Of a stretch of DNA of 38,349 nucleotides, positions 5,020 through 18,689 are shown in pieces. Location of the stretch: NCBI GenBank assembly GCA_903888645.1, contig CAISUK010000386.1, forward strand, positions 1 through 38,349. The letters are read 5' to 3'. This DNA is from an uncultured Pseudomonadota bacterium. GTDB lineage: Bacteria; Pseudomonadota; Gammaproteobacteria; Burkholderiales; Rhodocyclaceae. The position numbers were made by a program, and so were the translations under genes. The notes beneath the pieces were generated by a model, which saw only the letters and a list, made by a program, of their open reading frames with translations, was not told the origin of the DNA and did not search any database. Positions within the stretch are counted from its first letter, which is position 1, and each line of letters starts with the position of its first letter.

Positions 5020-5760
5020 CTATATCGATGTATAGCCACCATCGACGAGAATCGTCGAGCCGGTGATGAATGAAGATTCATCGCTGGCCAAGAACAAGGC
5101 CAGATTTGCGACTTCCGAGGCCTCTGCCATGCGACCCATGGGCGTTGCCTGACCGACCACCTTGAGGGCAAGTTGATCTATGCCATCCGTCATACCGGTC
5201 TTGATTGCGCCAGGAAGAATGGCATTGACCCTGATGCCTTGCGCTGCGTATTCGACGGCCGCCACTTTGGTCATCATGCACACCGCAGCTTTTGCAGCGC
5301 AGTAAGCTATTTCCTTTTTGAAGGCGACGACCGCAGCCATAGACGAAGTGCTAATGATGGAGCCTCCGCCATACTTGAGCATGATTGGAATGGCATAGCG
5401 GATGCCGAGAAAGCCAGATCGTCCATTGACTGCCCAGACTTCGTCAAAGTCTTCTTCGGAGTATTCGCCCGAACGGCGCATTCGACCAAGGATAGATGCA
5501 TTGTTGTAAAGAATATCCAGCCGTCCGAAGGCGGAAACCGCCTTTTCGAGCATAGCCTGAACTTCTTTTCCTTCTGACACATCCGCATGAAAGGGAATGC
5601 AATTGGGGCCCAGCCGCGTTGCAACCTCCGCCTGCTTTCCGGAGATATCTACCGCAACAATCTTGGCACCTTCGCGACAGAACAGTGTTGCCGTCGCTGC
5701 CCCGATACCAGATCCGGCCCCGGTAATAACTGCAACTTTCCCTTCCAGTCTGCCGGCCAT
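5020..5760 (-). CDS. SDR-family oxidoreductase (tandem copy 1)
   Basis: A classical 246-residue short-chain dehydrogenase. The nucleotide-binding motif TGAGSGIG is at residues 13-20, the catalytic set is Ser140, Tyr153 and Lys157 (YCAAK), and Asn112 is present. Asp38 at the end of the second strand (AVDIS) favours NAD+ over NADP+. The usual NNAG motif reads YNNAS. It starts with the same 20 residues as the neighbouring SDR at 5899 and has the same length, so the two arose by tandem duplication. It is last in the catabolic cluster, 138 bases after its paralogue. Likely role: oxidation of a hydroxyl or reduction of a keto group on a cyclic or acyl-CoA intermediate; the substrate cannot be read from sequence. 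Confidence 0.85.
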   Translation of the reverse strand: MAGRLEGKVAVITGAGSGIGAATATLFCREGAKIVAVDISGKQAEVATRLGPNCIPFHADVSEGKEVQAMLEKAVSAFGRLDILYNNASILGRMRRSGEYSEEDFDEVWAVNGRSGFLGIRYAIPIMLKYGGGSIISTSSMAAVVAFKKEIAYCAAKAAVCMMTKVAAVEYAAQGIRVNAILPGAIKTGMTDGIDQLALKVVGQATPMGRMAEASEVANLALFLASDESSFITGSTILVDGGYTSI

Positions 5761-5836
5761 TTGTTCTTCTGATGAGATTGTTTGGCATCCCCGAAGTGTG
5801 GATGCTAGAGGGCAGAAAGGGCGTCCCCGAAGGCAA

Positions 5837-5871
5837 TTGCCTTAGCTTTCTCTCCAGAAGGCTAAGGGCAA
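5837..5871 (-). terminator. Imperfect hairpin between the two SDR genes
   Basis: TTGCCTTAGC at 5837-5846 pairs with GCTAAGGGCAA at 5861-5871, with one bulged base and a 14-base loop. It lies 27 bases past the stop of the upstream SDR. There is no run of T residues after it on the minus strand, so it may be a processing or stability element rather than a strong terminator. Confidence 0.3.
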
Positions 5872-5898
5872 GTTCATGAAAGACCGAGCGTTTCTGAT

Positions 5899-6639
5899 TT
5901 ATAGGGAGGTGTATCCGCCGTCGATCAGAATGGATGAACCCGTGATGAAAGATGATTCGTCACAGGCAAGGAAGAGACCGAGGTTGGCCACTTCGATGGG
6001 GTCCGCCATACGGTTCATCGGTACAGCCTTTTTAACCCCTTCGATATACTCAGCGGGCATGTGTGCGGTGATGCCGGTAACCACGGGGCCCGGGCAAATG
6101 ATGTTGGCCCGAATGCCCTTGGCGGCGTATTCAACGGCAACCACCTTGGTCATCATGGTGATGGCACCCTTCGAAGCGCAATATGCTGGCATGGTGGGAA
6201 ATGCGACGACCGATGCCATTGACGACGTATTGACAATTGAACCACCGCCATTTTTTAGCATCAGCGGAATTGCATAACGCATGCCGAGGAAAACCGAGCG
6301 GCCATTGATGGCCCACACCCGGTCAAATTCTTCTTCCGGGTACTCGCCTGTCGGTACCATTTCGCCATCGATGGCAGCATTGTTGACCAGAACGTCAATC
6401 TTACCGAATGCCGTCATTGCTGCATTCAACATGGCCTGAACGTCAGAGCTCTTGGAAACATCGGCTTGAAAAGGGAGGCAGTTGCTGCCGATTTTCTTGG
6501 CAACATCATCCTGGCGCCCGGAAATGTCCGCCGCAACGACTTTTGCCCCTTCACGGCAAAACAGTTCGGCCATGGAAGCGCCAATTCCGGATCCTGCGCC
6601 TGTAATAACTGCTACTTTACCTTCCAGTCTGCCTGCCAT
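5899..6639 (-). CDS. SDR-family oxidoreductase (tandem copy 2)
   Basis: Paralogue of the gene at 5020 with the same 246-residue length and an identical start (MAGRLEGKVAVITGAGSGIG). The cofactor motif is at 13-20, the catalytic residues are Ser140, Tyr153 and Lys157 (YCASK), and Asp38 (AADIS) suggests NAD+. It differs most from copy 1 in the loop after the catalytic Lys and in the substrate loop (GPVVTGITAHMPAEYI against GAIKTGMTDGI), so the copies probably act on different substrates. An AAGGAGAGAG ribosome site precedes the ATG. It lies 90 bases after the CoA-transferase fragment and is probably co-transcribed with the MaoC-to-enoyl-CoA hydratase genes. Confidence 0.86.
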   Translation of the reverse strand: MAGRLEGKVAVITGAGSGIGASMAELFCREGAKVVAADISGRQDDVAKKIGSNCLPFQADVSKSSDVQAMLNAAMTAFGKIDVLVNNAAIDGEMVPTGEYPEEEFDRVWAINGRSVFLGMRYAIPLMLKNGGGSIVNTSSMASVVAFPTMPAYCASKGAITMMTKVVAVEYAAKGIRANIICPGPVVTGITAHMPAEYIEGVKKAVPMNRMADPIEVANLGLFLACDESSFITGSSILIDGGYTSL

Positions 6640-6729
6640 TTCTCTCTCCTTGTTTATGAGTGGTAATCAAGTGAAGTGCAATACAAAGGTGCGCTCAGAA
6701 ACAGATAGTTCCAAAAGTACCCGGATGAA

Positions 6730-6912
6730 TTAGTGTTTGGTCAAACGCGCAATTGACGAAGTGTCGTAGCCGAGTTCTTGCAAGATATCCACCGAATGCT
6801 GGTCCAAGTTTGGAGGTGAGAGGCGGACACCAGAACCGTTCGGTTCGATAGGGAAGCGAATCTGCGGCATGCCCTCAGCCCAGTCGATGGCGGAAGGGGT
6901 GACAACCAACAT
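6730..6912 (-). pseudogene. C-terminal fragment of a CaiB/BaiF (class III) CoA-transferase
   Basis: A 60-residue frame whose second half (PPNLDQHSVDILQELGY, followed by SSIARL) matches the extreme C-terminus of class III CoA-transferases, where a GQHT-like motif and an ELGY helix close the protein. Family members have about 400 residues, so some 340 residues, including the catalytic Asp, are missing. It nevertheless starts with ATG at 6912 behind a strong AAGGAG site, six bases after the enoyl-CoA hydratase stop. It may be a deletion remnant that is still translated. A separate function for the tail is possible but unsupported. Confidence 0.65.
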
Positions 6913-6918
6913 TGAATC

Positions 6919-7737
6919 TCACTCCTTGTCGTTCATGTTAAAGCGGGCTGGGCGTTTTTCCCGAGCTGCTGCGATACCTTCCTTCAGATCGCTCGTATGG
7001 GTAAGTGCTGCCACCGACCAGAAACTAGCATTCATGGAACTTACGAGATCCATGTGCCAGCTCTGTCGCAATTGTTGTTTGGTGGCTTCCAGCGCAAGGC
7101 GTGAATGCGTTGCAATTCGTGTGGCCAATTCGATAGCGGTAGGCATTAGCGCCTCCGGTTCGACGACCCGATTGACCAAACCAATTTGCAGTGCGCGCTG
7201 GGCGTCGACGATATCGCCAGTGAGCGCCAGTTCTGCTGCCATGCCGGAGCCAAGCAGGCGTGGCATGAAATAGGTGCCACCGTTGCCTGGTGCAAGACCG
7301 AGCTTAATATAAGTTTCACCCATCTTCGCGGCAGTAGATGCAATGCGAAGGTCACAGGCCAAGGCCAGATCCAGACCGCCTGCAGTTGCGCCGCCGTTCA
7401 CCGCAGCAATAACTGGCAAGCGGCAGGTGACTACCTTCTGAGTAACGGGGAACAGAACACGTGCGTTGTATGGTTCCTGCTCAATGGCCAGGCGTTCATT
7501 GAGGTATTGCTGAAATGCAACGAGATCTGCGCCGGCACAGAACTGCTTGCCAGCTCCGGTCAGGACCAGCACGCGGATCGTCTTGTCCTTTTCGAAACGG
7601 GTCAGTGCTTCCAGAAGATCCCGTGCCATTTCCGGAACCACGCCATTTCCACGCTCGGGGCGATTCAGGGTCAATACGACCACGCCATCCGCTGGACGAT
7701 CGTAGTAGACGGTTTCGAGCTCTACCCTTTGGTTCAT
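6919..7737 (-). CDS. Enoyl-CoA hydratase/isomerase family protein
   Basis: A 272-residue crotonase-fold protein. The oxyanion-hole segments are visible as FCAGADL and NGGATAGGLDLALACDLRIAS, and a Glu lies in the MGETYIKLGLAPGNGG region where the catalytic Glu pair normally sits. It should act on an unsaturated acyl-CoA thioester, as hydratase, isomerase or hydrolase; the exact reaction varies widely in this family. I chose the ATG at 7737 (MNQRVEL, behind TTGGAAAA) over a longer frame reaching 7812, which would run far into the thiolase gene. It sits 17 bases after the thiolase stop, within the acyl-CoA operon. Confidence 0.85.
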   Translation of the reverse strand: MNQRVELETVYYDRPADGVVVLTLNRPERGNGVVPEMARDLLEALTRFEKDKTIRVLVLTGAGKQFCAGADLVAFQQYLNERLAIEQEPYNARVLFPVTQKVVTCRLPVIAAVNGGATAGGLDLALACDLRIASTAAKMGETYIKLGLAPGNGGTYFMPRLLGSGMAAELALTGDIVDAQRALQIGLVNRVVEPEALMPTAIELATRIATHSRLALEATKQQLRQSWHMDLVSSMNASFWSVAALTHTSDLKEGIAAAREKRPARFNMNDKE

Positions 7738-7754
7738 GATATTTTCCAAAATAG

Positions 7755-8933
7755 TTAGTTGACTTTTTGCAGGATAGTGGCGACGGCCAGCGCGTAGGTG
7801 TTGTCGAGCCAACCACCACCGTTAACGGCCATGCCAAGCTTTGCATCTGGAACCTGCCGCTTGCCTGCGCGACCACAAAGCTGGGTGTAAAGCTCAGCGA
7901 CTTGCGCGCAGCCTGTAGCACCCAGCGGGTGCCCGCGGCTGAGTAATCCACCGCTCAGATTGACCGGATGTTTGCCGCCGAGGGCAGTCGCGCCGCTGCG
8001 GAGAAGATGATGAGCCTGGTCTGGTTCGCACAGGCCTATTTCGCCGTATTGGAGAAGTTCTGCCGGCGCTGCGGCATCATGCAATTCGATAAGGTCCATA
8101 TCATGAGGGCCAACGCCAGCCTCTCGATAAGCGGCCGCTGCCGCACCCCAAACCGGGCTATGCTTGTCGCCCTTGCCTGGCGCGCCGATCTTCGAACCGA
8201 TGATTTCGATCAACGGCTTGTTCAATCGCCGGGCGTAGGCTTCCGAGCAGACCACAATCGCAGCAGCGCCGTCGGTGGTTGGGGAGCACATGGGCAAGCT
8301 GAGCGGAGAAACGATCATCCGTGCCGCCATGACTTCCTCTGCTGTCTGCGGCTTACGCAGATGGGCCAAAGGATTTTCAGCGGCATGTTTGCGGTTTTTG
8401 ACGGCAACTAGAGCAAAGTCATACGGTGAAGCCTGGTAGCGATCCAGATACGACTGGGCTTCACCGGCGTAGTAGTCCATCAGGATTGAATTGGTGGACA
8501 CTTCCCCGGGGATGGATTCACCAATTTCCTCAATATCCGTGGCGCCGCGCAGGGCATTAAAAGGGCGGGACTTGTCTTCGTGGTTAAGTTTTTCAGCGCC
8601 GACCACGAGTATTACTTCGGCGCGTCCGCCGGCGACTGCTTCATAGGCAAGAGACAGAGCAGAACCACCAGAGGCGCAGGCATTTTCAATGTTGATGAGG
8701 GGGGTGCCCAACAGGGCGTGATAGCGTAGGGCGATTTGCCCCCGAATCATTTCCTGTTGGGTGACGATGCCGGCAGCCGCATTGCCGAAGAAAATGCGCT
8801 CGACATCTGCCGCGGGTATTCCTGCATCGGCTAGTGCTTCGTCAATCGCGGCAACGGCGAGGGCGCGGAGGCCTGTGCTCAGGTGCTTACCAAAAGGCGT
8901 CATTCCGACACCGGCAATCATTACCTTGCTCAT
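7755..8933 (-). CDS. SCP-x-type thiolase
   Basis: This 392-residue thiolase-superfamily protein keeps the nucleophilic Cys86 in NACASGG and His335 in SRGHPLGATG. Another His is at 285 in LIELHDAAA, as in the SCP-x/lipid-transfer branch. The third classical element, the C-terminal Cys in a CxG motif, is replaced: the matching position reads AVNGGG. This pattern is known in SCP-x thiolases, which cleave bulky branched 3-ketoacyl-CoA. Start at ATG 8933, three bases after the ligase stop, so tightly coupled. Its pairing with a second, Cys-less thiolase-like protein in the same operon suggests two successive chain-shortening steps: one thiolytic (this enzyme) and one aldol-type. Confidence 0.86.
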   Translation of the reverse strand: MSKVMIAGVGMTPFGKHLSTGLRALAVAAIDEALADAGIPAADVERIFFGNAAAGIVTQQEMIRGQIALRYHALLGTPLINIENACASGGSALSLAYEAVAGGRAEVILVVGAEKLNHEDKSRPFNALRGATDIEEIGESIPGEVSTNSILMDYYAGEAQSYLDRYQASPYDFALVAVKNRKHAAENPLAHLRKPQTAEEVMAARMIVSPLSLPMCSPTTDGAAAIVVCSEAYARRLNKPLIEIIGSKIGAPGKGDKHSPVWGAAAAAYREAGVGPHDMDLIELHDAAAPAELLQYGEIGLCEPDQAHHLLRSGATALGGKHPVNLSGGLLSRGHPLGATGCAQVAELYTQLCGRAGKRQVPDAKLGMAVNGGGWLDNTYALAVATILQKVN

Positions 8934-8936
8934 TCA

Positions 8937-10526
8937 TTACCCTTTCTTGTTCGCGGTGGGACCACCGCCACCGATACGGCCTTCGTGACCCGTCCAGTAA
9001 GTCTCGCGAATTTCCTTTCGCATGACTTTGCCATAGCCGCTGACGGGGAGCTTATCCATAAAATCAACGCTCTTTGGTTTCTTGTATCCCGCCATATTGC
9101 GTCCGCAGTGGTCGATGATTTCTTTGGCAGAAACGCTCATGCCTGGTTGGCATTCGATGACCGCATGGACTGCCTCGCCCCAGTATTCGTGGGGAACGCC
9201 AAACACTACAACGTTAGCTACAGCCGGGTGGGCGACGATGACTTCTTCGACTTCCCGTGGGTATACGTTGTTGCCACCACTGATAATCATGTCTTTGGCG
9301 CGGTCAAGCAGGAATAGGTATCCGTTCTCATCGAAGGCACCAATGTCGCCAGTATGCAGCCATCCATTACGCATGGCTTCGGCTGTCGCTTCCGGGTTGT
9401 TCCAGTAGCCTGCCATGACAATGTCGCCACGGACCACGACCTCGCCAGCATTTCCCGGCGGAAGTTCATTGTCATTCTCATCAACCACTCGGGCTTCCAC
9501 GTCGGTACGTATAGTGCCGGTAGACCCGATGCGGGGATCGTTGGCTTCTGCCATCTGCGCAGTGACTGCTGCGTTCATGCCGGTGATGGTGATGGGAGAT
9601 TCCCCTTGACCATAAAGCTGGGTAAACACAGGACCGAAAGCTTTGATGGCGTTACGAAGATGCTCGACGTAGATTGGGGCCCCTCCGAAACAGATAGCCC
9701 GCAGACTGGAGAAGTCATACTTGCCTGGTTCGTACTCTTCCAACATCTTGATGATCTGAGTTGGTGCGAGAAACGCAATGTGGGAGACCTTCATTTTCTC
9801 TATGAGCGCGAAAAGTTCTTTGGGCTCAAAGCTCTTGTTCTCGAAAATGACATTGGTCGCGCCTCTGGCCACGGCAGGCAAGGCGATGATGCCGCTACCG
9901 TGGGACATGGGCGCTGCGTGCACTACCACTTCACCGGGCTGGATGTTGTACAGATCGGCGAGGTAATTCATGATGACAATTTTCACCGTCCGGTGATTCC
10001 AGGTAGCGCCTTTCGGTTTGCCAGTGGTACCGGATGTGTAGAACAGCCAACAGGGATCTGTCTGCTGCACATCCACCGGGGCGGCCAGCTGATTTGCCGG
10101 ATTTAATAGCGTCTCGTAAGTTGATGTACCTTCAGCGGTTGCCAAACAGATTCGGTGTTCCACGCAAGCGAACCCACCGATGTTTTCGACGATCCCGCTT
10201 TGGAATTCAGGCCCATGGATCAGTACCTTTGAGCCGGAATTGGTGACGATGTAGGCAATTTCCTTAGCATGCAAGCGCGCATTCGTGGGCACAACCACGA
10301 GGCCTGCAGCGAAGCAGCCGTAGATTGTTTCAAGAATGCGTGGACTATTAGACAAACAGAAGGCGACTCGGTCTCCTGCTTTTAGCCCAAGGGCGAGGAG
10401 GTTGCCGCCAATTGTCAGAGCGCGCTGATAAAAATCACGGTAGGTGATTTTTTCGTCACCATGAACCAAGGCAAGAGTGTCCGGGTTGCGGCGCGAGGCA
10501 TTCTGCAAAAAAATACAGGTATTCAT
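8937..10526 (-). CDS. Acyl-CoA ligase (AMP-forming, ANL superfamily)
   Basis: A 529-residue adenylate-forming enzyme with all main motifs: the phosphate loop YTSGTTGKPKG at about residues 162-172, YGQGESPITIT, the hinge region LHTGDIGAFDENGYLFLLDR, and the C-terminal lysine in SGYGKVMRKEIR that catalyses adenylation. It should activate a carboxylic acid to its CoA thioester using ATP. The length and layout match medium/long-chain or cyclic-acid ligases; the acid is unknown. I used ATG 10526 (MNTCIFLQ), 11 bases after the DUF35 stop, rather than an upstream start that would overlap that gene. It is the natural entry step of the operon. Confidence 0.88.
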   Translation of the reverse strand: MNTCIFLQNASRRNPDTLALVHGDEKITYRDFYQRALTIGGNLLALGLKAGDRVAFCLSNSPRILETIYGCFAAGLVVVPTNARLHAKEIAYIVTNSGSKVLIHGPEFQSGIVENIGGFACVEHRICLATAEGTSTYETLLNPANQLAAPVDVQQTDPCWLFYTSGTTGKPKGATWNHRTVKIVIMNYLADLYNIQPGEVVVHAAPMSHGSGIIALPAVARGATNVIFENKSFEPKELFALIEKMKVSHIAFLAPTQIIKMLEEYEPGKYDFSSLRAICFGGAPIYVEHLRNAIKAFGPVFTQLYGQGESPITITGMNAAVTAQMAEANDPRIGSTGTIRTDVEARVVDENDNELPPGNAGEVVVRGDIVMAGYWNNPEATAEAMRNGWLHTGDIGAFDENGYLFLLDRAKDMIISGGNNVYPREVEEVIVAHPAVANVVVFGVPHEYWGEAVHAVIECQPGMSVSAKEIIDHCGRNMAGYKKPKSVDFMDKLPVSGYGKVMRKEIRETYWTGHEGRIGGGGPTANKKG

Positions 10527-10537
10527 TTGCGTTTCAC

Positions 10538-10939
10538 TTATGGGTTGATGCGCTTGAATGAAGCGCAGGGTCGGCGCTCGATGGACTCTGCCGAGACTGG
10601 GGTGAACTCGACCGTGTCGTCGCACTTGTAGCTATCCCAGTTGCCATCGGGGTCGGGGATCAGGCGTCCCAGCAATTGCACACCTTCCTGCAGTTTGACG
10701 ACGCCCAGCGCATAAGGAAGGTCACCTTCAAATCCCTGAGGGGCACCCTGTCGCAGTACTGTGTAACTATGAAGAATTCCACGTCCTGAAGCCTTTTGCC
10801 AACCGAGCGATAGGGACTGGCAGTGAGGGCAAGCGTGGCGCGGGTACATGTTCAGCCCGCCACAGTCGTTACATTTCTGGACCAGCAATTCACCCTGAGC
10901 GAGTCCTGCACGAAATCCATCACGGATCGGGTTGCTCAT
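10538..10939 (-). CDS. OB-fold/zinc-ribbon DUF35 protein, partner of the thiolase-like protein
   Basis: A 133-residue protein with an N-terminal rubredoxin-like zinc ribbon (CNDCGG then CPHC, four Cys) and a C-terminal OB-fold (GRGILHSYTVLRQG, YALGVVKLQEG), the DUF35 architecture. DUF35 proteins bind SCP-x/Ltp thiolase-like enzymes and are needed for their activity, as with ChsH2 and Ltp2 in steroid side-chain cleavage. The start codon overlaps the stop of the thiolase-like gene by one base (TAATG), so the two are translationally coupled, which supports a physical complex. A longer frame reaching 11062 would lie inside the thiolase-like gene and is rejected. Confidence 0.85.
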   Translation of the reverse strand: MSNPIRDGFRAGLAQGELLVQKCNDCGGLNMYPRHACPHCQSLSLGWQKASGRGILHSYTVLRQGAPQGFEGDLPYALGVVKLQEGVQLLGRLIPDPDGNWDSYKCDDTVEFTPVSAESIERRPCASFKRINP

Positions 10940-12168
10940 TACTTTCCTCCCTTCGAGGTCCGCTCGAGGAGCAGGACTTGCGCATCCATATAGCTGCCAC
11001 CGGTACCGCCCACGATGCAGCGCTGCACGCCCGTTACCTGACGTTGGCTTGGTGCACGCCAAAGCAGTTGACGGACGCCTTCAACCAGAAGCGCGGTTCC
11101 ACCACCGACCCCTGTGTGGCCCGCAGAAAGCATGCCACCATTGGTGTTGCAGGGCAGGGTTCCACCAGGGTCGGCGGCACCCGACTGAAACCAGCGGGCA
11201 CCTTCACCTGGTTCGCAGAACTCAAGTCCTTCCACGGCTGCCGCAGTGACAGCGGCATAGGTATCGTATATCTGTGCGATCTGGGCGTCCTTCGGACCCC
11301 AGCCGGATTGCTCGTAAGCTCTCTTGGCCGCGGTTGCCCATCCGAGTTTAGCGAGATCCGGTTCCTGACCGATGCTGTAGTGGCTGACACAGCCACCGGA
11401 CCCAGCGACACGAACAGTAGTCTCCAGTCCGCGTTTTTTGGCGTTTTCAGCACTTGTCATGACGAATGCCACGGCTCCATCGGCCAACATCGGGCATTCC
11501 AGCGCGTGTAGTGGCTCGGCTACCATCTTGGAGGACAACACCTTTTCCACCGTCAAGGGTTTGCCGTAGTACATGGCATTTGGGTTGAGCTGCGCCCATT
11601 TACGCAGCGTTACGCAGACGGATGCCATGGCTTCCGGGCTGGACTGGGTTGCGTGCATGTAGCGCCGGGTAATCAGGGCGCCGATGGCGTTGAATTGAAG
11701 GCCGGTGGGCATTTCCCATTCATTGGGGATGCCGTATTTACTGAGCATTGTGACCATTTCGTTCAGGTCAGCAGAGCCCCAGCGCTCACATTGCAGGACC
11801 AGCACTGTACGGGCATGGCCAGAGGCGATTAGTCCAGAGGCCAGACGCACTGCGTTATCGCTGGTGGAACCACCCGAATGGACCATGAAACTGGATTTCA
11901 GATGACCGATCAGACCCAGTTCTTCCGCCATGCGCGAAAAGATGAGGTCAGCTTGGTCTACTGCCGAATGAAGGTTCGGTATCAGCAGGATAGTGTCCAC
12001 GTGGCGGGGCACCATCTGCGCATCCTTCAGCGCAAGCAAGCCGACGTGGGTCAAGTCACCGATGAAGTTGCGGTCTGGATATCGACCGGAGGGCAATTCC
12101 CCGGTGCCGACAAAAACAGGATCGTTGGGGGATTTTGCGTCAACGTTCAGGGGCCAGGTATCAGCCAT
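10939..12168 (-). CDS. Thiolase-like protein lacking the nucleophilic Cys (Ltp2-like aldolase candidate)
   Basis: A 409-residue thiolase-superfamily protein. The segment aligned with the nucleophile loop reads SFMVHSGGSTSDNA: where a normal thiolase has Cys, there is Val96. A glycine/His segment (NTNGGMLSAGHTGVGGG) and a C-terminal Cys (QRCIVGGTGG) remain. Loss of the Cys with a paired DUF35 protein is the hallmark of Ltp2-type retro-aldolases, which split a beta-hydroxyacyl-CoA into a ketone or aldehyde and a short acyl-CoA. The Tyr-containing segment YDTYAAVTAAAVEGLEF is at the place where this branch carries functional Tyr residues. I chose the start at 12168 because GGAGG lies six bases before it; a start at 12180 is possible. 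It overlaps the MaoC gene by eight bases. Confidence 0.75.
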   Translation of the reverse strand: MADTWPLNVDAKSPNDPVFVGTGELPSGRYPDRNFIGDLTHVGLLALKDAQMVPRHVDTILLIPNLHSAVDQADLIFSRMAEELGLIGHLKSSFMVHSGGSTSDNAVRLASGLIASGHARTVLVLQCERWGSADLNEMVTMLSKYGIPNEWEMPTGLQFNAIGALITRRYMHATQSSPEAMASVCVTLRKWAQLNPNAMYYGKPLTVEKVLSSKMVAEPLHALECPMLADGAVAFVMTSAENAKKRGLETTVRVAGSGGCVSHYSIGQEPDLAKLGWATAAKRAYEQSGWGPKDAQIAQIYDTYAAVTAAAVEGLEFCEPGEGARWFQSGAADPGGTLPCNTNGGMLSAGHTGVGGGTALLVEGVRQLLWRAPSQRQVTGVQRCIVGGTGGSYMDAQVLLLERTSKGGK

Positions 12169-12652
12169 TGCTGCCTCCATCCTTATTGCGCCGCTTGGCG
12201 AGCATAATCTGCAGGAAGTTCATTACTTCTTCATCCCGCTGATTGCGGACAGAGTATTGAACATGCAGGGTGCCATATTTAGGATTGCTACCTTCGCTTG
12301 CTTCAACGACCGACGCATGAACCTTGACCGTGTCACCTGGTATCACCGGTTTCATCGCCCGCAGACTCTTGATTTCCAGCAGGGCAACGATGGCATCGCC
12401 GTAGAAGCCGCTCATGCCGACGAGACCAACCGCGATGGCGAAAGTCAGCGGACCATGGGTGATGCGCGTCCCGAAGCGAGTCGACTTGGCGAACTCCTCG
12501 TCAATATGTAGAGGATAGTGATCGCCCGTCAGGCCTGCGAATACGGTCAGGTCGCCAATATCGATGGTTCGGCCTCTAGTGATCATCACGTCGCCCTGAG
12601 AAAAGTCTTCAAAGCACTTTTCCTGTGGATCTGTCCAAGTACGCCCTTGCAT
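12161..12652 (-). CDS. MaoC-like enoyl-CoA hydratase (hot-dog fold)
   Basis: A 163-residue single hot-dog protein. The hydratase-2 motif is clear: FAGLTGDHYPLHIDEEFA, with Asp44 and His49 as the catalytic pair, followed by RITHGPLTFAIAVGL. It should add water to a trans-2-enoyl-CoA to give a 3-hydroxyacyl-CoA. It is the first gene of the operon, with a strong AGGAGGCGAC site before the ATG. Position next to a Cys-less thiolase-like protein and DUF35 mirrors steroid side-chain systems in which MaoC hydration precedes retro-aldol cleavage. The palindromic operator lies only 16 bases upstream of the start, close enough to block transcription start or the leader. Confidence 0.86.
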   Translation of the reverse strand: MQGRTWTDPQEKCFEDFSQGDVMITRGRTIDIGDLTVFAGLTGDHYPLHIDEEFAKSTRFGTRITHGPLTFAIAVGLVGMSGFYGDAIVALLEIKSLRAMKPVIPGDTVKVHASVVEASEGSNPKYGTLHVQYSVRNQRDEEVMNFLQIMLAKRRNKDGGSNG

Positions 12653-12667
12653 GTCGCCTCCTAATAA

Positions 12668-12681
12668 AACAACTGTTTGTT
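12668..12681. promoter_or_regulatory. Palindromic operator AACAA-CTGT-TTGTT
   Basis: Perfect 14-base palindrome with a four-base spacer, directly upstream of the MaoC ribosome site. Its reverse complement is base-for-base identical to the site at 20728. The position at the very start of the transcript fits repression by a TetR-type dimer. Confidence 0.7.
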
Positions 12682-12741
12682 CATTTTACTCAGCAAATCG
12701 ATAGAACGTCAACTGATCTGTACCACGCCACTTGTACGGGG

Positions 12742-12772
12742 GTCATAGTTACCTCAAGGAGGCAACTATGAC
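12742..12772. repeat. Near-perfect 31-base palindrome covering a Shine-Dalgarno and ATG
   Basis: GTCATAGTT (12742-12750) pairs with AACTATGAC (12764-12772), and CCTC pairs with GAGG inside, leaving one a/c mismatch and a three-base loop. On the plus strand the right arm contains AAGGAGG and the ATG of a 35-codon frame. In RNA the hairpin would hide that ribosome site. It could also be an operator or a remnant of a mobile element end. Confidence 0.55.
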
Positions 12773-12875
12773 GGGGATGGAGTTGCTCCAGGAGAGCCTT
12801 CGGTACTCATCAGTGACGACTCCCCAGAAGCTGACTTTGGCCGGGATTGTTAACACGGCGGCCGCCAAGCCTTAA
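12768..12875 (+). other. Small 35-codon reading frame of unknown nature
   Basis: ATG at 12768 follows AAGGAGG at ideal spacing and the frame runs 35 codons (MTGMELLQES...) to TAA. After the stop, another frame continues with a protein-like composition (AVELPAYTAEL, PVYAALTDQLW) but with further stops, so this may be the head of a decayed gene of some 90 residues. I do not recognise the family. It is the only coding-like signal between the MaoC operator and the MaoC-like pseudogene. Confidence 0.3.
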
Positions 12876-13067
12876 CTGCAGTCGAACTGCCGGCCTACAC
12901 CGCCGAGTTAGCCGTGCCGCTTATCTCGGCAGGTTAAGTCCCGGTCTACGCCGCATTGACTGATCAATTATGGCGCTGCCTACGACAGATGACCGAAGCC
13001 ATGCGCTGAAATATCAAGAAGCAGATGTGTCATAACAAAACCGGGTCCAATGCCCCAGATGCAAGTT
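12876..13067. other. Rest of the intergenic stretch before the MaoC-like pseudogene
   Basis: Probable continuation of the decayed frame noted at 12768. No intact gene, terminator or RNA was recognised. Confidence 0.3.
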
Positions 13068-13346
13068 TCAGGCAGCGGCACGCGAGCTGACCATGACCAA
13101 GGTCTCTCCGCCGATCACTAGCTTGTCGCCCATGGTGCAGTTGGTGCTCATTGCGACGCGGCATTTTTCAAGGATGGTGGCCGTCATCTCGATCGTAGCC
13201 CGCACGGTGTCGCCGACCGTTGACCGGGGCCATGAATTTCAGGCGTTGCGCATGCAAAGGACACCCGGTGCCGGCAGGCGGGTGCCGACGGCCGCAGAAA
13301 TGAATCCTGCCAACAACATGCCATGGGCAATAAGTTCCTTGAACAT
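13068..13346 (-). pseudogene. Decayed MaoC/hot-dog dehydratase
   Basis: Minus-strand translation gives FKELIAHGMLLAGFISAAVG and PAPGVLCMR, then needs a shift of one base at about 13240 to read RLKFMAPVN, and an opposite shift a few codons later to read VGDTVRATIEMTATILEK and GDKLVIGGETLVMVSSRA. This is the C-terminal two thirds of a PhaJ/MaoC hydratase, containing the AHGM motif that follows the active site. The N-terminal ~60 residues, with the catalytic Asp/His, are absent; the preceding gene, ETF-QO, ends 24 bases upstream. One missing base, one extra base and a truncation mark it as dead. It is distinct from the intact MaoC at 12161. Confidence 0.75.
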
Positions 13347-13369
13347 AGATTTAGCCGGCGCCTCCTGAC

Positions 13370-15004
13370 TTACATCTGCTGATAAATCGGCCCTTCACCA
13401 CCCTGAGGCGCCACCCAGTTGATGTTCTGCGTGGGATCCTTGATGTCGCAAGTTTTGCAGTGCAAACAGTTCTGGGCATTGATCTGCAGGCGCGGTGTTT
13501 GTTCTGCGTCGCGGACGATTTCATATACACCGGCCGGGCAATAACGCTGCTCGGGCGAGTCATACAGCTCCAGATTGGTCGTGAGCGGCACGCTGGCGTC
13601 CTTCAGTTGCAGATGACAGGGTTGGTCTTCCTCGTGGTTGGTGTTCGAGAGGAATACCGACGCCAAGCGGTCGAAGGTCAGCACCCCGTCGGGCTTCGGA
13701 TAGGTAATCACCTTGCATTCAGCTGCCGACTTAAGTTTCTCGTGATCGGCGGTGTTGTGCAGGGTCCAAGGCGCCTTGCCACGGAACAGCAACTGATCAA
13801 TCCCAAACAGGGCGGCGCCTTGCCACAAGCCCTTCGCCATCAGCGGTTTGAAGTTGCGAGCCCTATGCAGTTCGTCATAGAGCCAGGATTGACGGAACGC
13901 CTCCGGATATGCGCTCAGTTCGTCATGGCCACGCCCGGCCGCCAACGCCGATGCGGCCACCTCGGCCGCCAGCATGCCGGTCTTGAGGGCGGCGTGGCTG
14001 CCCTTGATGCGTGAGGCCACCAGAAAGCCCGCATCGTCGCCTATCAATGCGCCACCGGGGAAGACCAGCTTGGGCATGGATTGCAGGCCACCCGCCGCCA
14101 GCGCGCGTGCGCCGTACGCGAGACGCCTGCCACCTTTCAGCATGCAGGCGATCTGCGGATGTGTTTTGTAGCGCTGCATTTCTTCAAACGGCGCAAGGTA
14201 GGGATTGCTGTAACCGAGGCCGACTACCAGACCGATCGAAATAAGGTTCTCGCCAAAGTGATAGGCAAAACCGCCGCCATACGTATCCGCGGGCAAGGGC
14301 CATCCGGCGGTGTGCACCACGAGGCCCGCTTTGTGCTGCTCCGGATCGACTTCCCAGAGTTCCTTAATACCCAGCGCATAAGTTTGCGGGTCGACACCCT
14401 CGCGCAAAGTGTAGCGTGATTCCAGTTGCTTGCCGAGGTGACCACGACAGCCTTCGGCGAATAGCGTGTACCGGGCATGTAGTTCCATGCCTGGCTGAAA
14501 GCCTCCGCTCTGCTCGCCGGTGCGCGCGACACCCATGTCGCCGGTGGCGACACCGCGCACAGCACCGATTTTGTCGTACAGAATTTCGGCCCCGGCGAAA
14601 CCAGGATAGATTTCGACGCCCAGTGCTTCGGCCTGCTCGCCGAGCCAGCGGCATACTGCACCGAGGCTGACGATGTAGTTGCCGTCATTGAGAAAGCAAC
14701 TCGGCAGGATTCGGTTGGGGATGTCTACGTAACCGTCTTGCTTCAGTAGCGAGAAACGGTCTCGACTGACGGCGGTTTCAAGCGGAGCTCCTAGCGACTG
14801 CCAGTCGGCGAAAAGCTCGGTGATGGCGCGCGGATCCATTACTGCGCCGGAGAGGATGTGGGCGCCGATCTCGCTGCCTTTTTCGATCAGGCAAACGCTG
14901 TACATCGGATTGCATTGTTTGAGGCGGATGGCTGCCGCCAGACCGGCAGGGCCGCCACCCACGATGAGAATATCAAACTCCATGGACTCGCGATCGGTAC
15001 GCAT
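13370..15004 (-). CDS. Electron transfer flavoprotein-ubiquinone oxidoreductase
   Basis: A 544-residue ETF-QO. The FAD-binding GGGPAGLAAAIRL is at about residues 16-28, and the C-terminal ferredoxin-like segment holds the 4Fe-4S ligands in YCPAGVYEIV and NCLHCKTCDIKDP. It accepts electrons from reduced ETF and passes them to ubiquinone at the inner membrane. The length and domain fusion match the single-polypeptide form. It follows the acyl-CoA dehydrogenase by nine bases and completes an electron chain encoded in one operon: dehydrogenase, EtfAB, ETF-QO. That chain would serve acyl-CoA (or similar) dehydrogenation in the adjacent catabolic pathway. Confidence 0.92.
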   Translation of the reverse strand: MRTDRESMEFDILIVGGGPAGLAAAIRLKQCNPMYSVCLIEKGSEIGAHILSGAVMDPRAITELFADWQSLGAPLETAVSRDRFSLLKQDGYVDIPNRILPSCFLNDGNYIVSLGAVCRWLGEQAEALGVEIYPGFAGAEILYDKIGAVRGVATGDMGVARTGEQSGGFQPGMELHARYTLFAEGCRGHLGKQLESRYTLREGVDPQTYALGIKELWEVDPEQHKAGLVVHTAGWPLPADTYGGGFAYHFGENLISIGLVVGLGYSNPYLAPFEEMQRYKTHPQIACMLKGGRRLAYGARALAAGGLQSMPKLVFPGGALIGDDAGFLVASRIKGSHAALKTGMLAAEVAASALAAGRGHDELSAYPEAFRQSWLYDELHRARNFKPLMAKGLWQGAALFGIDQLLFRGKAPWTLHNTADHEKLKSAAECKVITYPKPDGVLTFDRLASVFLSNTNHEEDQPCHLQLKDASVPLTTNLELYDSPEQRYCPAGVYEIVRDAEQTPRLQINAQNCLHCKTCDIKDPTQNINWVAPQGGEGPIYQQM

Positions 15005-15013
15005 AAGATTGCC

Positions 15014-16807
15014 TTACAACAGACCGTCGGCGATATCGAGGACGGCCGCACTGCCTTCCGCGATGGCGGCAGCGTAGGCAGCGGCGAGTGGAAGCTGGTG
15101 GGCCGCAAAGTAGCTTGCGGTGGCTATCTTGGCGCGATAAAAGTCATCGCTGGCACCACTAGCTATTTGCTGCGCGGCGATCTGTGCCGATTTGGCCATC
15201 AGCCAGCCCGACACTACGATGCCGGTGAGTTTCAGATAGGGCACAGCGCCAGCGGCGGCGGCACGCGGGTTGCTGTCATAAGTAGCGAGCAGCCAGTCAG
15301 TGGCGCGCTGCATGGCCGCAATGCCGTCATTCAATTGACGGGCCATGGCCAACAATGATTCGTCGTTGCCCATGCTGTTTGCGAAGGTGGCCATTTCCGC
15401 CAGCAATGCTTTGGCCGTGCTCCCCGGAACCTTCTCGCGGGCCAACTTGCGGCCGATCAGGTCGTTGGCCTGGATGCCGGTAGTGCCTTCGTAGATCGCG
15501 GTGATCCGGGCATCACGGAAATACTGGCAGGCGCCAGTCTCTTCGATGTAGCCGACTCCCCCCCAGACTTGGATTCCGGTGGAGGTGATTTCAATACTTT
15601 GTTCGGTGCTCCAGCCCTTGACTACCGGCGTCAGAAAATCGGCCCGTGCCTGGTGTGTGACACGAGCTGTGGCTTCGGGATGGTTATGGGCGCGATCCAT
15701 CTGTCCGGCGACCCAGTACGCCAGCGTGCGCATGGCTTCAGTGCGTGACTTCATGTCCAGCAGCATGCGGCGTACATCGGGGTGGTGGATGATGGCCTTG
15801 GTTTCGCCGCTCTTGTCACCGATCGGAGCCCCCTGAATCCGCTCGCGGGCATACGACAGTGCATGCTGGTACGAGCGCTCGGCAATGCCGACGCCCTCAA
15901 GGCCGACATTGACCCGGGCGTGGTTCATCATGGTAAACATGTAACCTAGGCCCTTGTTGGCGTCGCCGACCAGATAGCCGATGGCTCCGGCGTTCTCACC
16001 AAATGCCATGACCGCAGTCGGGCTACCGTGGATGCCCATCTTGTGCTCGATCGAGGCGCAGACCAGATCATTGCGAGCACCGAGTGATCCATCGGAATTG
16101 ACCAGGAACTTGGGCACCACGAACAGCGAAATGCCCTTGACCCCAGGGGGGGCGTCGGGCAGACGGGCCAGCACAAGGTGGATAATGTTTTCCGCCATGT
16201 CGTGCTCGCCCCAGGTGATGAAAATCTTGGTGCCTGAGATCAGATAGCTGCCATCGGCTTGTGGTTGCGCCTTGCTGCGGATCGCCGACAGGTCGGAGCC
16301 GGCCTGTGGTTCGGTGAGGTTCATGGTGCCGGTCCAGGTACCCGTCACCATGTTGGGCAGGTAGGTCGCTTTCAGTTCATCAGAGCCGTGGTGGGCGATG
16401 GCTTCGATGGCGCCACCAGTGAGCATGGGACACAGACCGAATGCCATGTTGGCCGACTTCCACATTTCATTGACCGCCATCGAGACCACGGTGGGCAAGC
16501 CCTGACCACCGAACTCGGGACTACAGGGCATGGCGTTCCAGCCGGTATCGACAAACAGTTTGTACGCCTCCTTGAAGCCATCTGCGGCCGTGACTTCGCC
16601 GCCCATCCACTTGGCGCCCTGCTGGTCACCGATGGCATTGATCGGGTCGAGTACGCCGGTGGCAAACTTGCCTGCCTCATCCAGAATGGCTTCGACCAGA
16701 TCAGGAGAGCACTCTTCATAGCCGGGTAGGCTGGTAATCTCCTCCAGACCGACGATATCGTTGAGAACAAAATGCATGTCCCGCACTGGGGCGCTATAGG
16801 TGCTCAT
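15014..16807 (-). CDS. Acyl-CoA dehydrogenase (~600-residue type with C-terminal extension)
   Basis: A 597-residue acyl-CoA dehydrogenase. Seen are the FAD/substrate segment MNLTEPQAGSDLSAI, GTKIFITWGEHDMAENI, the VQVWGGVGYIEETG motif, and the catalytic Glu in IYEGTTGIQANDLIGRKL at about residue 438. An extra C-terminal helical domain of about 130 residues places it in the long branch that includes DmdC-like (3-methylmercaptopropionyl-CoA) dehydrogenases and many uncharacterised ones. It introduces an alpha-beta double bond into an acyl-CoA and reduces EtfAB. The ATG at 16807 follows etfA by 21 bases. The substrate is not readable; context points to the acid activated by the ligase at 8937. 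Confidence 0.88.
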   Translation of the reverse strand: MSTYSAPVRDMHFVLNDIVGLEEITSLPGYEECSPDLVEAILDEAGKFATGVLDPINAIGDQQGAKWMGGEVTAADGFKEAYKLFVDTGWNAMPCSPEFGGQGLPTVVSMAVNEMWKSANMAFGLCPMLTGGAIEAIAHHGSDELKATYLPNMVTGTWTGTMNLTEPQAGSDLSAIRSKAQPQADGSYLISGTKIFITWGEHDMAENIIHLVLARLPDAPPGVKGISLFVVPKFLVNSDGSLGARNDLVCASIEHKMGIHGSPTAVMAFGENAGAIGYLVGDANKGLGYMFTMMNHARVNVGLEGVGIAERSYQHALSYARERIQGAPIGDKSGETKAIIHHPDVRRMLLDMKSRTEAMRTLAYWVAGQMDRAHNHPEATARVTHQARADFLTPVVKGWSTEQSIEITSTGIQVWGGVGYIEETGACQYFRDARITAIYEGTTGIQANDLIGRKLAREKVPGSTAKALLAEMATFANSMGNDESLLAMARQLNDGIAAMQRATDWLLATYDSNPRAAAAGAVPYLKLTGIVVSGWLMAKSAQIAAQQIASGASDDFYRAKIATASYFAAHQLPLAAAYAAAIAEGSAAVLDIADGLL

Positions 16808-16828
16808 GGAATTCTGCTCCAGCGTTAA

Positions 16829-17785
16829 TTAGAGTGCGGCGGTGAATTCGGGCACGGCGGTGAACAGATCGGCAACCAGTCCGTAATCAGCGATTTGAAA
16901 GATTGGGGCATCAGGATCCTTGTTGATGGCGACGATGACTTTGGAGTCCTTCATTCCGGCTAAGTGCTGGAAGGCGCCGGAGATGCCGACGGCGATATAG
17001 AGTTGCGGCGCGACGATCTTGCCGGTTTGTCCTACCTGATAGTCGTTGGGGACAAAACCGGCGTCCACCGCCGCGCGGGTGGCGCCCAGCGCCGCACCCA
17101 GTTTGTCAGCGAGTGGGCCCAGCACGCTCTGGAAGTTCTCGCCGTTGCCGAGGCCTCGACCACCTGAAACTATGACTTTGGCGGCGCCAAGTTCGGGGCG
17201 CGTCGATTTACTTAATTCCCGGCTGATCAGCCGGGGCTGTTTGGCATCCGGCGTTGCGGAAGTATCCTCAATCACCGCCGTTCCCCCTTCAGAAATGGCG
17301 GCATCAAAGCCGGTGGTTCGAACGGTAATCACTTTGGTAACGTCCGACGACTTCACAGTTACAAGTACATTGCCGGCATAAAAGGGACGCACAAAGGTAT
17401 CAACATCCTCGACGGCTATGATTTCCGAAATTTGGGCGACATCTAGCAAAGCTGCTACGCGAGGCAAGGTGTTCTTGCCGTGGCTCGTAGCGGGGGAGAG
17501 GATGTGACTATAAGCGGTTGTCCCATTGGTTACTTCAGCTACGATCAATGCGGCATGGCTCTCTGCAGTCATGTCACCCAGATGTGGGAGATCGGCAAGT
17601 TTGACTTTGGCGACACCAGCGATTCGTGCGGCAGCTTCGGCGACGGCGCGGCAGGCGGCTCCCCCAACAAGTACGTGAATTTCACTTGAGGTTAGCGAAG
17701 CAATGCGAGAGGCCGCACTGACGGTATTGAGAGTAGACGCATGCAAGCTAACGTTATTGTGTTCGGCGATAACAAGTATGGCCAT
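16829..17785 (-). CDS. etfA: Electron transfer flavoprotein alpha subunit
   Basis: A 318-residue EtfA. The C-terminal FAD domain is clear: [55 protein letters not shown] and [20 protein letters not shown]. With EtfB it forms a soluble heterodimer carrying electrons from acyl-CoA dehydrogenases to ETF-QO. The start is two bases after the etfB stop, so the two are translationally coupled in the usual etfB-etfA order. Confidence 0.93.
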
Positions 17786-17787
17786 GA

Positions 17788-18537
17788 TCAGAGAACCTTT
17801 GCTTCGTGTTTGAGTTTGTCGATCAGTTGCGCGACATCGGCGACCTTGATGCCGGCGCCGCGCTTGGGTGGTTCGCTGAACTTCAGCGTTCTTAGGCGCG
17901 GGGCAACATCCACACCGAGAGCGCCTGGGTTGATGGTCTCCAGGGGCTTCTTTTTCGCTTTCATAATATTGGGGAGCGTTGCGTATCGAGGCGCGTTTAA
18001 CCTTAAATCCGCCGAAATCACAGCGGGAAGGGGAAATTCCAAAGTTTCCAGACCCCCATCGATTTCGCGTGTGACCGTTGCTACGTTTTCATTTAAGGTG
18101 ATCTTCGATGCACACGTTGCTTGTCCCCATCCCATCAATGCGGCGAGCATTTGTCCGGTCTGATTTGCATCGTCATCAATAGCCTGTTTGCCGCAAATCA
18201 CTAATTGAGGTTTCTCTTTGTGACAAATCGCGGCAAGCAATTTCGCAACTGCCAAAGGTTGCAACTCAACGTCTGTTTCTACAATAATCGCTCGGTCTGC
18301 TCCGAGTGCAAGTGCGCTGCGAAGCGTTTCTTGACAGCTTGCGACACCACAGGAAACGACGATAACTTCATCCGCGTTGCCGGCTTCCTTAATTCTGACA
18401 GCCTCTTCAACGGCAATTTCGTCAAAAGGATTCATTGACATTTTTACGTTGGAGACATCAACTCCCGAATGATCGGCCTTAACGCGAACCTTTACGTTGT
18501 AGTCGATGACCCGTTTTACTGGGACCACAATTTTCAT
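17788..18537 (-). CDS. etfB: Electron transfer flavoprotein beta subunit
   Basis: A 249-residue Etf[20 protein letters not shown] at the N-terminus, the family signature around [30 protein letters not shown], and [22 protein letters not shown]. It binds AMP and docks the partner dehydrogenase. I chose ATG 18537, which has GGAGGAAAGG just upstream, over a longer frame to 18588. It is the first gene of the etfB-etfA-dehydrogenase-ETF-QO operon. A TTGACA hexamer on the minus strand (18588-18583) is a possible -35 element, but the matching -10 is weak. No AACAA-N4-TTGTT site lies close upstream, so control may differ from the MaoC operon. Confidence 0.93.
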
Positions 18538-18689
18538 GATTTCCTTTCCTCCATTCAGTCCAACAAAAGCGAATAGCTTACGTGTCAAGTGAATCTAATC
18601 ATTCACGCTAAATCTGTGCAGGGAGTCGAATCGCGACCCAGAAATCGGTAAGCATGTGGTGTTTCTGACCAACATTTTCGAATCGCTTG

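Follow-up and report, generated by a model that had tools for sequence, protein, structure and literature searches.

The 38,349-nt contig CAISUK010000386.1 (hereafter the window, meaning the whole stretch analysed) belongs to the assembly GCA_903888645.1 of an uncultured bacterium of the family Rhodocyclaceae and carries three consecutive genes for a MaoC-type hydratase, a thiolase-like protein lacking the nucleophilic cysteine, and a DUF35 protein. We interpret the operon containing this trio (5020-12652) as the lower half of a degradation route whose substrate is alicyclic and probably a monoterpenoid, with the upper module located on another contig, and assign this reading a probability of about 0.55. 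Terpenoid rather than steroid use of the trio is probable because the same rare ring-opening gene set travels with it in unrelated bacteria.

Conservation and distribution of the trio

The arrangement of the trio is beyond chance: the order of the MaoC, thiolase-like, and DUF35 genes is kept in the Rhodocyclaceae metagenome-assembled genome STC_64 (genome G441, locus L035), in a second genome of the same family (G301, contig C82), and on plasmid pR8L1 of Rhodococcus sp. 008 (locus L032). The thiolase-like proteins of these loci were 93-94, 80, and 63-64% identical to that of the window, respectively, and the corresponding values were 77, 81, and 55% for MaoC and 71-75, 66-72, and 46-48% for DUF35 (ranges span tblastn and alignment values). 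Orthologues of the genes that follow were also present, with identities of 72, 78, and 48% for a Cys-containing thiolase, 82, 71, and 64% for a crotonase, and 89 and 83% for an acyl-coenzyme A (CoA) ligase in the first two loci.

The open reading frames (ORFs) of the trio, which the first-pass annotation had described as overlapping or abutting and as followed by a ligase and a second, Cys-containing thiolase, were confirmed in position, strand (minus), and head-to-tail overlap, and both following genes were found in place (Table 1). The end of the MaoC gene overlaps the thiolase-like gene by 8 nt from the ATG at 12168 (GGAGG 5 nt upstream) or by 20 nt from the ATG at 12180. The thiolase-like stop codon shares one base with the DUF35 ATG (TAATG), with a GGAGG upstream, in agreement with the translational coupling previously noted; because of this junction, the DUF35 gene likely corresponds to 10538-10939 (133 amino acids, aa), and the TTG-started 174-aa ORF to an in-frame extension. 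In the window and the three loci above, the MaoC gene precedes the Cys-less thiolase gene and the DUF35 gene overlaps it (4/4 each).

Close relatives of the thiolase-like protein were rare. At the order level, 70 of 300 genomes contained at least one relative with E <= 1e-20; outside the own genome, the highest identity was 37% over most of the length. The own genome was the single hit among 398 genomes of the phylum at E <= 1e-65, copies at >= 60% identity were found in 2 of 150 genomes of the family (the own genome and G301), and one of the 553 plasmid records with any match reached >= 60% (pR8L1, 64%). STC_64 (93%), a match that by itself would place the window in Rhodocyclaceae or close to that family, was found by a scan that detects close relatives only, and a scan of viral contigs yielded no additional sequences related to the thiolase-like protein. 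Regions L047-L050 were left out of the comparisons.

Predicted active site and partner proteins

Judged from its Ltp2- and Sal-related sequence, the Cys-less protein is predicted to have a thiolase fold. It had no Thiolase_N match at E <= 0.001 (Pfam) and reached the cut-off of no NCBIfam model, the best being PRK06158 (211 vs 421 bits). The nearest solved relatives were CtSal (9myr, 5e-43), 4u4e (1.8e-38), 7yvy (2e-38), and, in fourth place, TcLtp2 (6ok1, 1.2e-30). The position of the nucleophile is held by Val100 of the 413-aa ORF, which is Val96 when counted from Met5, as previously annotated, in the loop SSFMVHSGGST. This residue was paired with the Cys by eye from the following SGG, and MAFFT shifts the column by 2-3 residues relative to the Cys thiolases; the safe form of the statement is that the loop contains no Cys.

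The catalytic residues of both characterised relatives are described in PMC12329534, of which, as of the other articles cited for published systems and marked "in part", the accessible portion is reflected here. Both enzymes use a Tyr base; TcLtp2 has Tyr294 and the acid Tyr344 (motif YDHF), and CtSal has Tyr302 and the acid Cys304 (YDCY), with Gln352 at the place of Tyr344 (PMC12329534, in part). The window protein contains Y301-D-T-Y304 (Met5 numbering), with Y301 aligned to the Tyr of YDHF and YDCY, and H351 of a GHT motif at the place of Tyr344 and Gln352. The motif is YDTY in G441 and YDSY in G301 and Rhodococcus sp. 008, the loop carries Val or Ile, and the active-site Tyr and GHT His were invariant in 4/4 proteins of this group. 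No YD[TS]Y was found in 37 further loci of the same order and family, among which L028 had the Sal signature and L023, L026, L030, and L031 had YDSF with the His. The 4U4E structure and the Cys-less thiolase-like proteins of the order resemble the window protein in having the Tyr of a YDxF motif and, in many cases, a His where GHT lies (identities of approximately 30-37% along most of the sequence and of up to 43% for partial matches), but they lack YD[TS]Y and fall into other clades.

The partner proteins were consistent with a hydratase/retro-aldolase unit. The MaoC dyad D44/H49, for which His and Asp roles are described in PMC11321319 (in part), was kept in 4/4 aligned proteins. The nearest solved chains of the DUF35 protein were 9myr_B of CtSal (4.1e-14) and 6ok1_B of TcLtp2 (8.5e-10), and its four zinc-ribbon Cys were invariant in 5/5 aligned proteins. 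From these similarities and the gene junction, we propose that DUF35 is the translationally coupled partner of the putative aldolase, and perhaps also a partner of the Cys thiolase. The earlier assignment as a hydratase/retro-aldolase module is thus supported at the sequence level (D44/H49, no Cys, Y301 as base, coupled DUF35), whereas its "Ltp2-type" label is not supported, YDHF and Tyr344 both being absent.

Compared with Sal-Shy, which acts on the C5 side chain of bile acids in Comamonas testosteroni (PMC12329534 and PMC11321319, both in part; 9MYR), the window trio shares the Cys-less thiolase fold, the YDxY Tyr base, DUF35, and a single MaoC with a D/H dyad. It differs in the Thr/Ser that replaces the essential Cys, the His in place of Gln352, the absence of a recognisable steroid context, its separate clade, and the two separate genes for MaoC and DUF35, which are not a Shy-like fusion. 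With Ltp2-ChsH2(DUF35)/ChsH1, which acts on the C3 side chain (6OK1), it has in common the Cys-less thiolase fold, DUF35, MaoC, and the Tyr of YDxx, but it has YDTY for YDHF, His351 for Tyr344, one catalytic MaoC for the ChsH1-ChsH2 pair, and again a clade of its own.

A different function for the thiolase-like protein was also considered, namely that it is a decarboxylase, a condensing enzyme, or a partner without catalysis of its own, and that DUF35 chiefly assists the Cys thiolase (7755-8933). The genome has a single DUF35 match for two thiolase-fold proteins in the operon, the Cys thiolase matches archaeal models (AcCoTHIOL_METTL, 3.3e-66, below the cut-off), an archaeal thiolase has been solved with a DUF35 chain (6esq), and the thiolase-like TbSLP (YDCF) is described as a slow malonyl-CoA decarboxylase (PMC12329534, in part). 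Nevertheless, it is the Cys-less gene that DUF35 overlaps at each of the four close loci, the MaoC gene stands before it at all of them, and the Tyr and His are invariant, so that we regard this alternative as unlikely.

Phylogeny of the thiolase-like protein

In a maximum-likelihood tree of 44 rows, the four close relatives formed their own clade (100/100), which was joined by a 39% identical protein from a Rhizobium etli plasmid (100/99); Sal, Ltp2, the Ipf pair, and the Cys thiolases all fell outside it. In a 39-row tree without Cys thiolases, the deep order changed with weak support (68/86 next to Sal), and the window clade again lay outside the Sal and Ltp2 clades. The four-member clade is therefore firm, whereas the neighbouring branches are not. 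Nine of 53 thiolase rows shorter than 300 aa were dropped before the 44-row tree, and five further Cys thiolases before the 39-row tree; Sal and Ltp2 were represented by two rows each, and the rows included no characterised Cys-less condensing enzyme. The first-pass annotation had named clustering with Cys-less condensing enzymes of unrelated function as an outcome that would contradict it; in these two trees, which lack characterised ones, the protein formed its own clade, and by score PhlC was a far weaker relative (2.7e-13) than CtSal (5e-43).

The trees also bear on the possibility that the trio works like IpfD-IpfE of the ibuprofen plasmid pIBU218 (PMC9195938, in part), removing the acyl side chain of a dihydroxylated ring to give an acyl-CoA and a catechol or ketone. 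IpfD, labelled from the pIBU218 gene order and PMC9195938 (in part), is a non-steroid thiolase-like protein with no Cys in the loop and with a DUF35 neighbour, an acyl-CoA ligase lies nearby, and a Rieske-oxygenase-like ORF recognised by eye ends the upper module of the own genome. However, IpfD has YDAF, is accompanied by ring dioxygenase genes instead of MaoC, and grouped in both trees with another Rhodococcus protein, away from the window protein. No ring-hydroxylating dioxygenase adjoined the aldolase-like gene, either by annotation in L032 or by Pfam in the window, and the adjoining MaoC hydratase would be left without a role. We consider this explanation very unlikely.

Three loci met in this comparison are recorded here in their own right. 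The Rhizobium etli relative (plasmid pRetNXC12e, L033 11983-14014; YDAY, GHT) has its own DUF35 and lies near genes for a cytochrome P450 (P450), an acetoacetate-decarboxylase-family protein, and hydantoinases; a small thioesterase-family protein adjoins it, and no MaoC is annotated beside the aldolase-like gene. Plasmid pR8L1 carries a second P450-ferredoxin-reductase-thiolase-like-DUF35 set (L056 3230-7527), whose thiolase-like protein has YDCY and no loop Cys and groups with IpfD. Close to the ibuprofen cluster of pIBU218 lies an Ltp2-type protein (YDHF, GEAY) that is annotated only as a lipid-transfer protein and is accompanied by its own DUF35, a crotonase, and a CoA transferase (L034 10939-14557).

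The putative ring-opening module

On pR8L1, the trio belongs to an approximately 18-kb region in which acyl-CoA dehydrogenase, MaoC, aldolase-like, DUF35, crotonase, short-chain dehydrogenase/reductase (SDR), P450, and ferredoxin genes are followed by genes for a thiolase, a ferredoxin reductase, a ligase, and a CoA transferase, and then by a flavin monooxygenase, an SDR, and an SMP-30 protein, the last three within approximately 15 kb of the aldolase-like gene. The monooxygenase is a type I Baeyer-Villiger monooxygenase (BVMO), whose best solved relative was OTEMO (5.4e-179; 600 bits vs 480 bits for phenylacetone monooxygenase; 48-49% identity over 542-543 aa). This relation and that of the P450 given below are similarities in sequence only.

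When the own genome was searched with the Rhodococcus BVMO, a single match (76-77%) was found on contig C193 (G000:C193), beside the genome's only P450 match. The counterparts of the Rhodococcus region on this contig were an SMP-30 lactonase (71%; the name denotes identity to a protein annotated as SMP-30/gluconolactonase family), an SDR (66%), the P450 (60%), a TetR regulator (47%), a ferredoxin reductase (42%), and a CoA transferase (33%). The BVMO fingerprint (FKGQSFHTAAW, for FxGxxxHxxxW) and the P450 haem motif (FGAGPHRCIG) were intact; P450, type I BVMO, and lactonase thus occur together in the own genome. By eye, the contig also contains a hotdog thioesterase and the Rieske-type oxygenase-like ORF mentioned above (40589-41761, L054), which is encoded on the opposite strand where the P450-BVMO module ends.

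The BVMO is uncommon in the family: 18 of 150 genomes had a match at E <= 1e-30, and the best of the other 149 reached 45%, the own genome alone lying above. G441 contains the same BVMO (79%) and a single P450 match that is 89% identical to the P450 of the window genome. In G301, one P450 (71%) lies inside the aldolase cluster and another (61%) beside a 38% BVMO. Among the four carriers of the close aldolase-like gene, the 76-79% BVMO group was therefore present in three and the P450 group (60-89% to that of the window genome) in all four.

These partners bear on the substrate. The module resembles the camphor pathway of Pseudomonas putida, which also has a P450 and a BVMO (OTEMO) and leads to a 3-methyl-branched acyl-CoA (PMC6352141 and PMC8706424, both in part), but its P450 is different and an SMP-30 lactonase lies within it. 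The Rhodococcus P450 scored higher against an ancestral CYP125 construct (178 bits) than against P450cam (approximately 155 bits), so that camphor itself is not implied. Given this and the 48-49% identity to OTEMO, we make no claim for camphor as the substrate.

A steroid side-chain module of the Ltp2 or Sal type in a bile acid or sterol degrader, the first of the substrates that had been suggested (steroid, terpenoid, or another branched acid), would explain why the three domains are shared with ChsH1/H2-Ltp2 and Shy-Sal, why CtSal and TcLtp2 were the first and fourth solved relatives of the thiolase-like protein, and why the two best solved relatives of DUF35 come from the same enzymes. The active site, however, carries neither the Ltp2 (YDHF/Tyr344) nor the Sal (YDCY) signature, MaoC and DUF35 do not form one protein as they do in Shy, and the partner genes conserved with the trio encode a BVMO and a lactonase. 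DUF35 (PF01796) had one match in the own genome and one in G441, against eight in G301. No match to KshA_C (PF19298), the marker used for 3-ketosteroid 9-alpha-hydroxylase, was found in the own genome, which is 85.55% complete and was searched for no other steroid genes; this test is weak, one of 14 control genomes giving a signal and none exceeding the cut-off. With these reservations about the assembly and the control, we rejected steroids as the preferred reading on the basis of the single DUF35, the missing KshA_C, and the active site. The context argues weakly against steroids, which we hold to be a highly improbable substrate, and the conserved partners point instead to an alicyclic, probably terpenoid, compound.

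A further alternative keeps the aldolase but assigns it to a non-terpenoid branched or alicyclic acid (e.g., a naphthenic acid), with the P450 and BVMO in the same pathway acting on an anthropogenic or fatty substrate. In its favour, pR8L1 has been described as having multiple fatty-acid degradation genes (PMC13304129, in part). On the other hand, the BVMO is nearest, among solved BVMOs, to OTEMO, an enzyme acting on a terpenoid CoA ester, and we judge this alternative somewhat unlikely.

Proposed pathway and its weak points

In the pathway that we favour, the upper module (P450, SDR, OTEMO-like BVMO, SMP-30 lactonase, and CoA transferase) would oxidise the ring and then open it, and the ligase would link the resulting beta-branched acid to CoA. 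Ordinary beta-oxidation would stall at the branch because a tertiary beta-alcohol (C3) cannot be oxidised to a ketone. MaoC would instead add water to the 3,3-disubstituted enoyl-CoA, and the thiolase-like protein, held by DUF35, would cleave the tertiary 3-hydroxyacyl-CoA by a retro-aldol reaction to acetyl-CoA and a ketone, with Tyr301 deprotonating the beta-hydroxyl and His351 reprotonating the enolate. The rest of the chain would be processed by the SDRs, the crotonase, and the Cys thiolase. Gene content and order, active-site residues, the clade, and co-occurrence with the upper module are what the analysis shows directly, and from these we infer the aldolase activity, the complex with DUF35, the part played by His351, and the kind of substrate. 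Ltp2 offers a parallel, catalysing a retro-aldol cleavage at the C17 alcohol of steroids; enzymes for acyclic terpenes (Atu/Liu) handle the beta-branch by carboxylation.

The proposed upper steps follow the general scheme for monoterpene-type rings, in which a ketone is converted by a BVMO and a lactone hydrolase to an acyclic acid, and for which beta-decarboxylation is said to be needed at 3-methyl branches (PMC7794910, in part). OTEMO leads to 3,4,4-trimethylpimelyl-CoA, and enzymes are assigned as far as trimethylpimelyl-CoA (PMC6352141, in part); the CAM operon is said to cover all steps to acetyl-CoA and isobutyryl-CoA, the enzymes of the rest being unnamed (PMC8706424, in part). In the accessible portions of these three articles, the bacterial passage of the beta-branch after opening of a monoterpenoid ring is thus only sketched. 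A search of the open-access literature returned no account of this cluster or of a non-steroid DUF35 retro-aldolase, and "P450", "thiolase", and "terpen" did not occur in the main text of PMC13304129 on Rhodococcus sp. 008.

Several observations weigh against the pathway. Thr/Ser stands in the window clade at the position of the essential Cys of CtSal, whose replacement by Ser, Ala, or His abolished activity (PMC12329534, in part); another acid is therefore needed, and His351 is no more than a candidate. As a sequence relative of the thiolase-like protein, the Cys thiolase 7yvy (2e-38) ranks about level with 4u4e and ahead of TcLtp2 (1.2e-30). An AlphaFold model of the protein, built from two sequences, had a mean predicted local distance difference test score (pLDDT) of 33.5 and was not used. 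The window ligase shared 34% identity with the nearest ligase of the Rhodococcus stretch, and a 378-aa dehydrogenase of G441 has no close copy in the own genome (34% at best). In G441, directly after the dehydrogenase of the cluster, lies a 599-aa outer-membrane-like ORF (L035 18966-20765; DUF1302-type by eye) that might be a substrate porin.

The pairing of the modules has weaknesses of its own. G301 lacks the 77% BVMO (38% at best; bin 83% complete) and has 16 P450 and 8 DUF35 matches, which make its case less telling. The upper and lower modules lie on different contigs in both the window genome and G441, and in an assembly of 727 contigs a binning error could produce such a cross-contig pairing. 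This source of the pairing is unlikely because the modules recur in G441, also on different contigs, and share one plasmid in Rhodococcus.

Tentatively, and with the odds somewhat against it, the window protein may represent a third class of acyl-CoA aldolases that bind DUF35 (Val/Ile in the loop, YD[T/S]Y, GHT; Tyr as base and His as acid), of which it would be the first to be recognised. It would cleave tertiary 3-hydroxyacyl-CoAs derived from monoterpenoid rings and would have been exchanged, along with its P450, BVMO, and lactonase genes, between Actinobacteria and Proteobacteria of the Rhodocyclaceae type. Such a class would provide a route past the beta-branch other than the carboxylation of Atu/Liu. 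The DUF35 aldolases, which the literature found describes for steroids, would thereby gain a small-molecule branch whose active site differs and which could be of use in the synthesis or cleavage of tertiary alcohols.

Gene inventory of the window

The genes of the operon and the block upstream of the trio are listed in Table 1. The etfB-etfA-dehydrogenase-electron transfer flavoprotein (ETF)-quinone oxidoreductase (ETF-QO) block possibly provides acyl-CoA oxidation and electron supply, its link to the trio being strand and proximity. The acyl-CoA dehydrogenase in it (15014-16807, 597 aa) was considered as a member of the conserved module, which was unsupported, the matches being 24-27% in L035 and L032 and 23% in G301:C82; the match in L033 was 34%.

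Table 1. Features of the operon and the upstream block, with window coordinates
Feature	Position	Strand	Evidence
etfB-etfA-acyl-CoA dehydrogenase (597 aa)-ETF-QO block	13370..18588	-	Pfam; upstream of the trio
MaoC-type enoyl-CoA hydratase, 163 aa	12161..12652	-	PF01575 MaoC_dehydratas 5.4e-25; dyad D44/H49 (GDHYPLH)
Thiolase-superfamily protein without nucleophilic Cys, proposed acyl-CoA retro-aldolase	10939..12168 (start also possible at 12180)	-	Thiolase_C_1 2.3e-42
DUF35 protein, 133 aa, zinc ribbon (4 Cys) and oligonucleotide/oligosaccharide-binding (OB) fold, proposed aldolase partner	10538..10939	-	zf-ChsH2 5.1e-13, OB_ChsH2_C 1e-13
AMP-dependent acyl-CoA ligase	8937..10526 (GTG-started ORF reaches 10625; ATG near 10526 likely)	-	PF00501 1.2e-79
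Cys-containing thiolase, 392 aa	7755..8933	-	PF00108/PF22691; Cys86 (INIENACASGG), HDAA, GHP
Crotonase-family enoyl-CoA hydratase/isomerase	6919..7812	-	PF00378 1.4e-57
SDR dehydrogenase	5899..6639	-	PF13561; 85% to SDR of L035
SDR dehydrogenase, tandem paralogue	5020..5760	-	67% to neighbouring SDR; 79% to G301 SDR

The spacer between the ETF-QO and MaoC genes (12653-13369) contains, by eye, a broken MaoC/PhaJ-type fragment in minus-strand frame 2 that is interrupted by a stop and is probably a decayed hydratase gene. Near the end of the window, the ORF at 34363-35691 had a Gp3-like match (recombination directionality factor-like family, 2.3e-31), which suggests the remains of a phage or integrative element.

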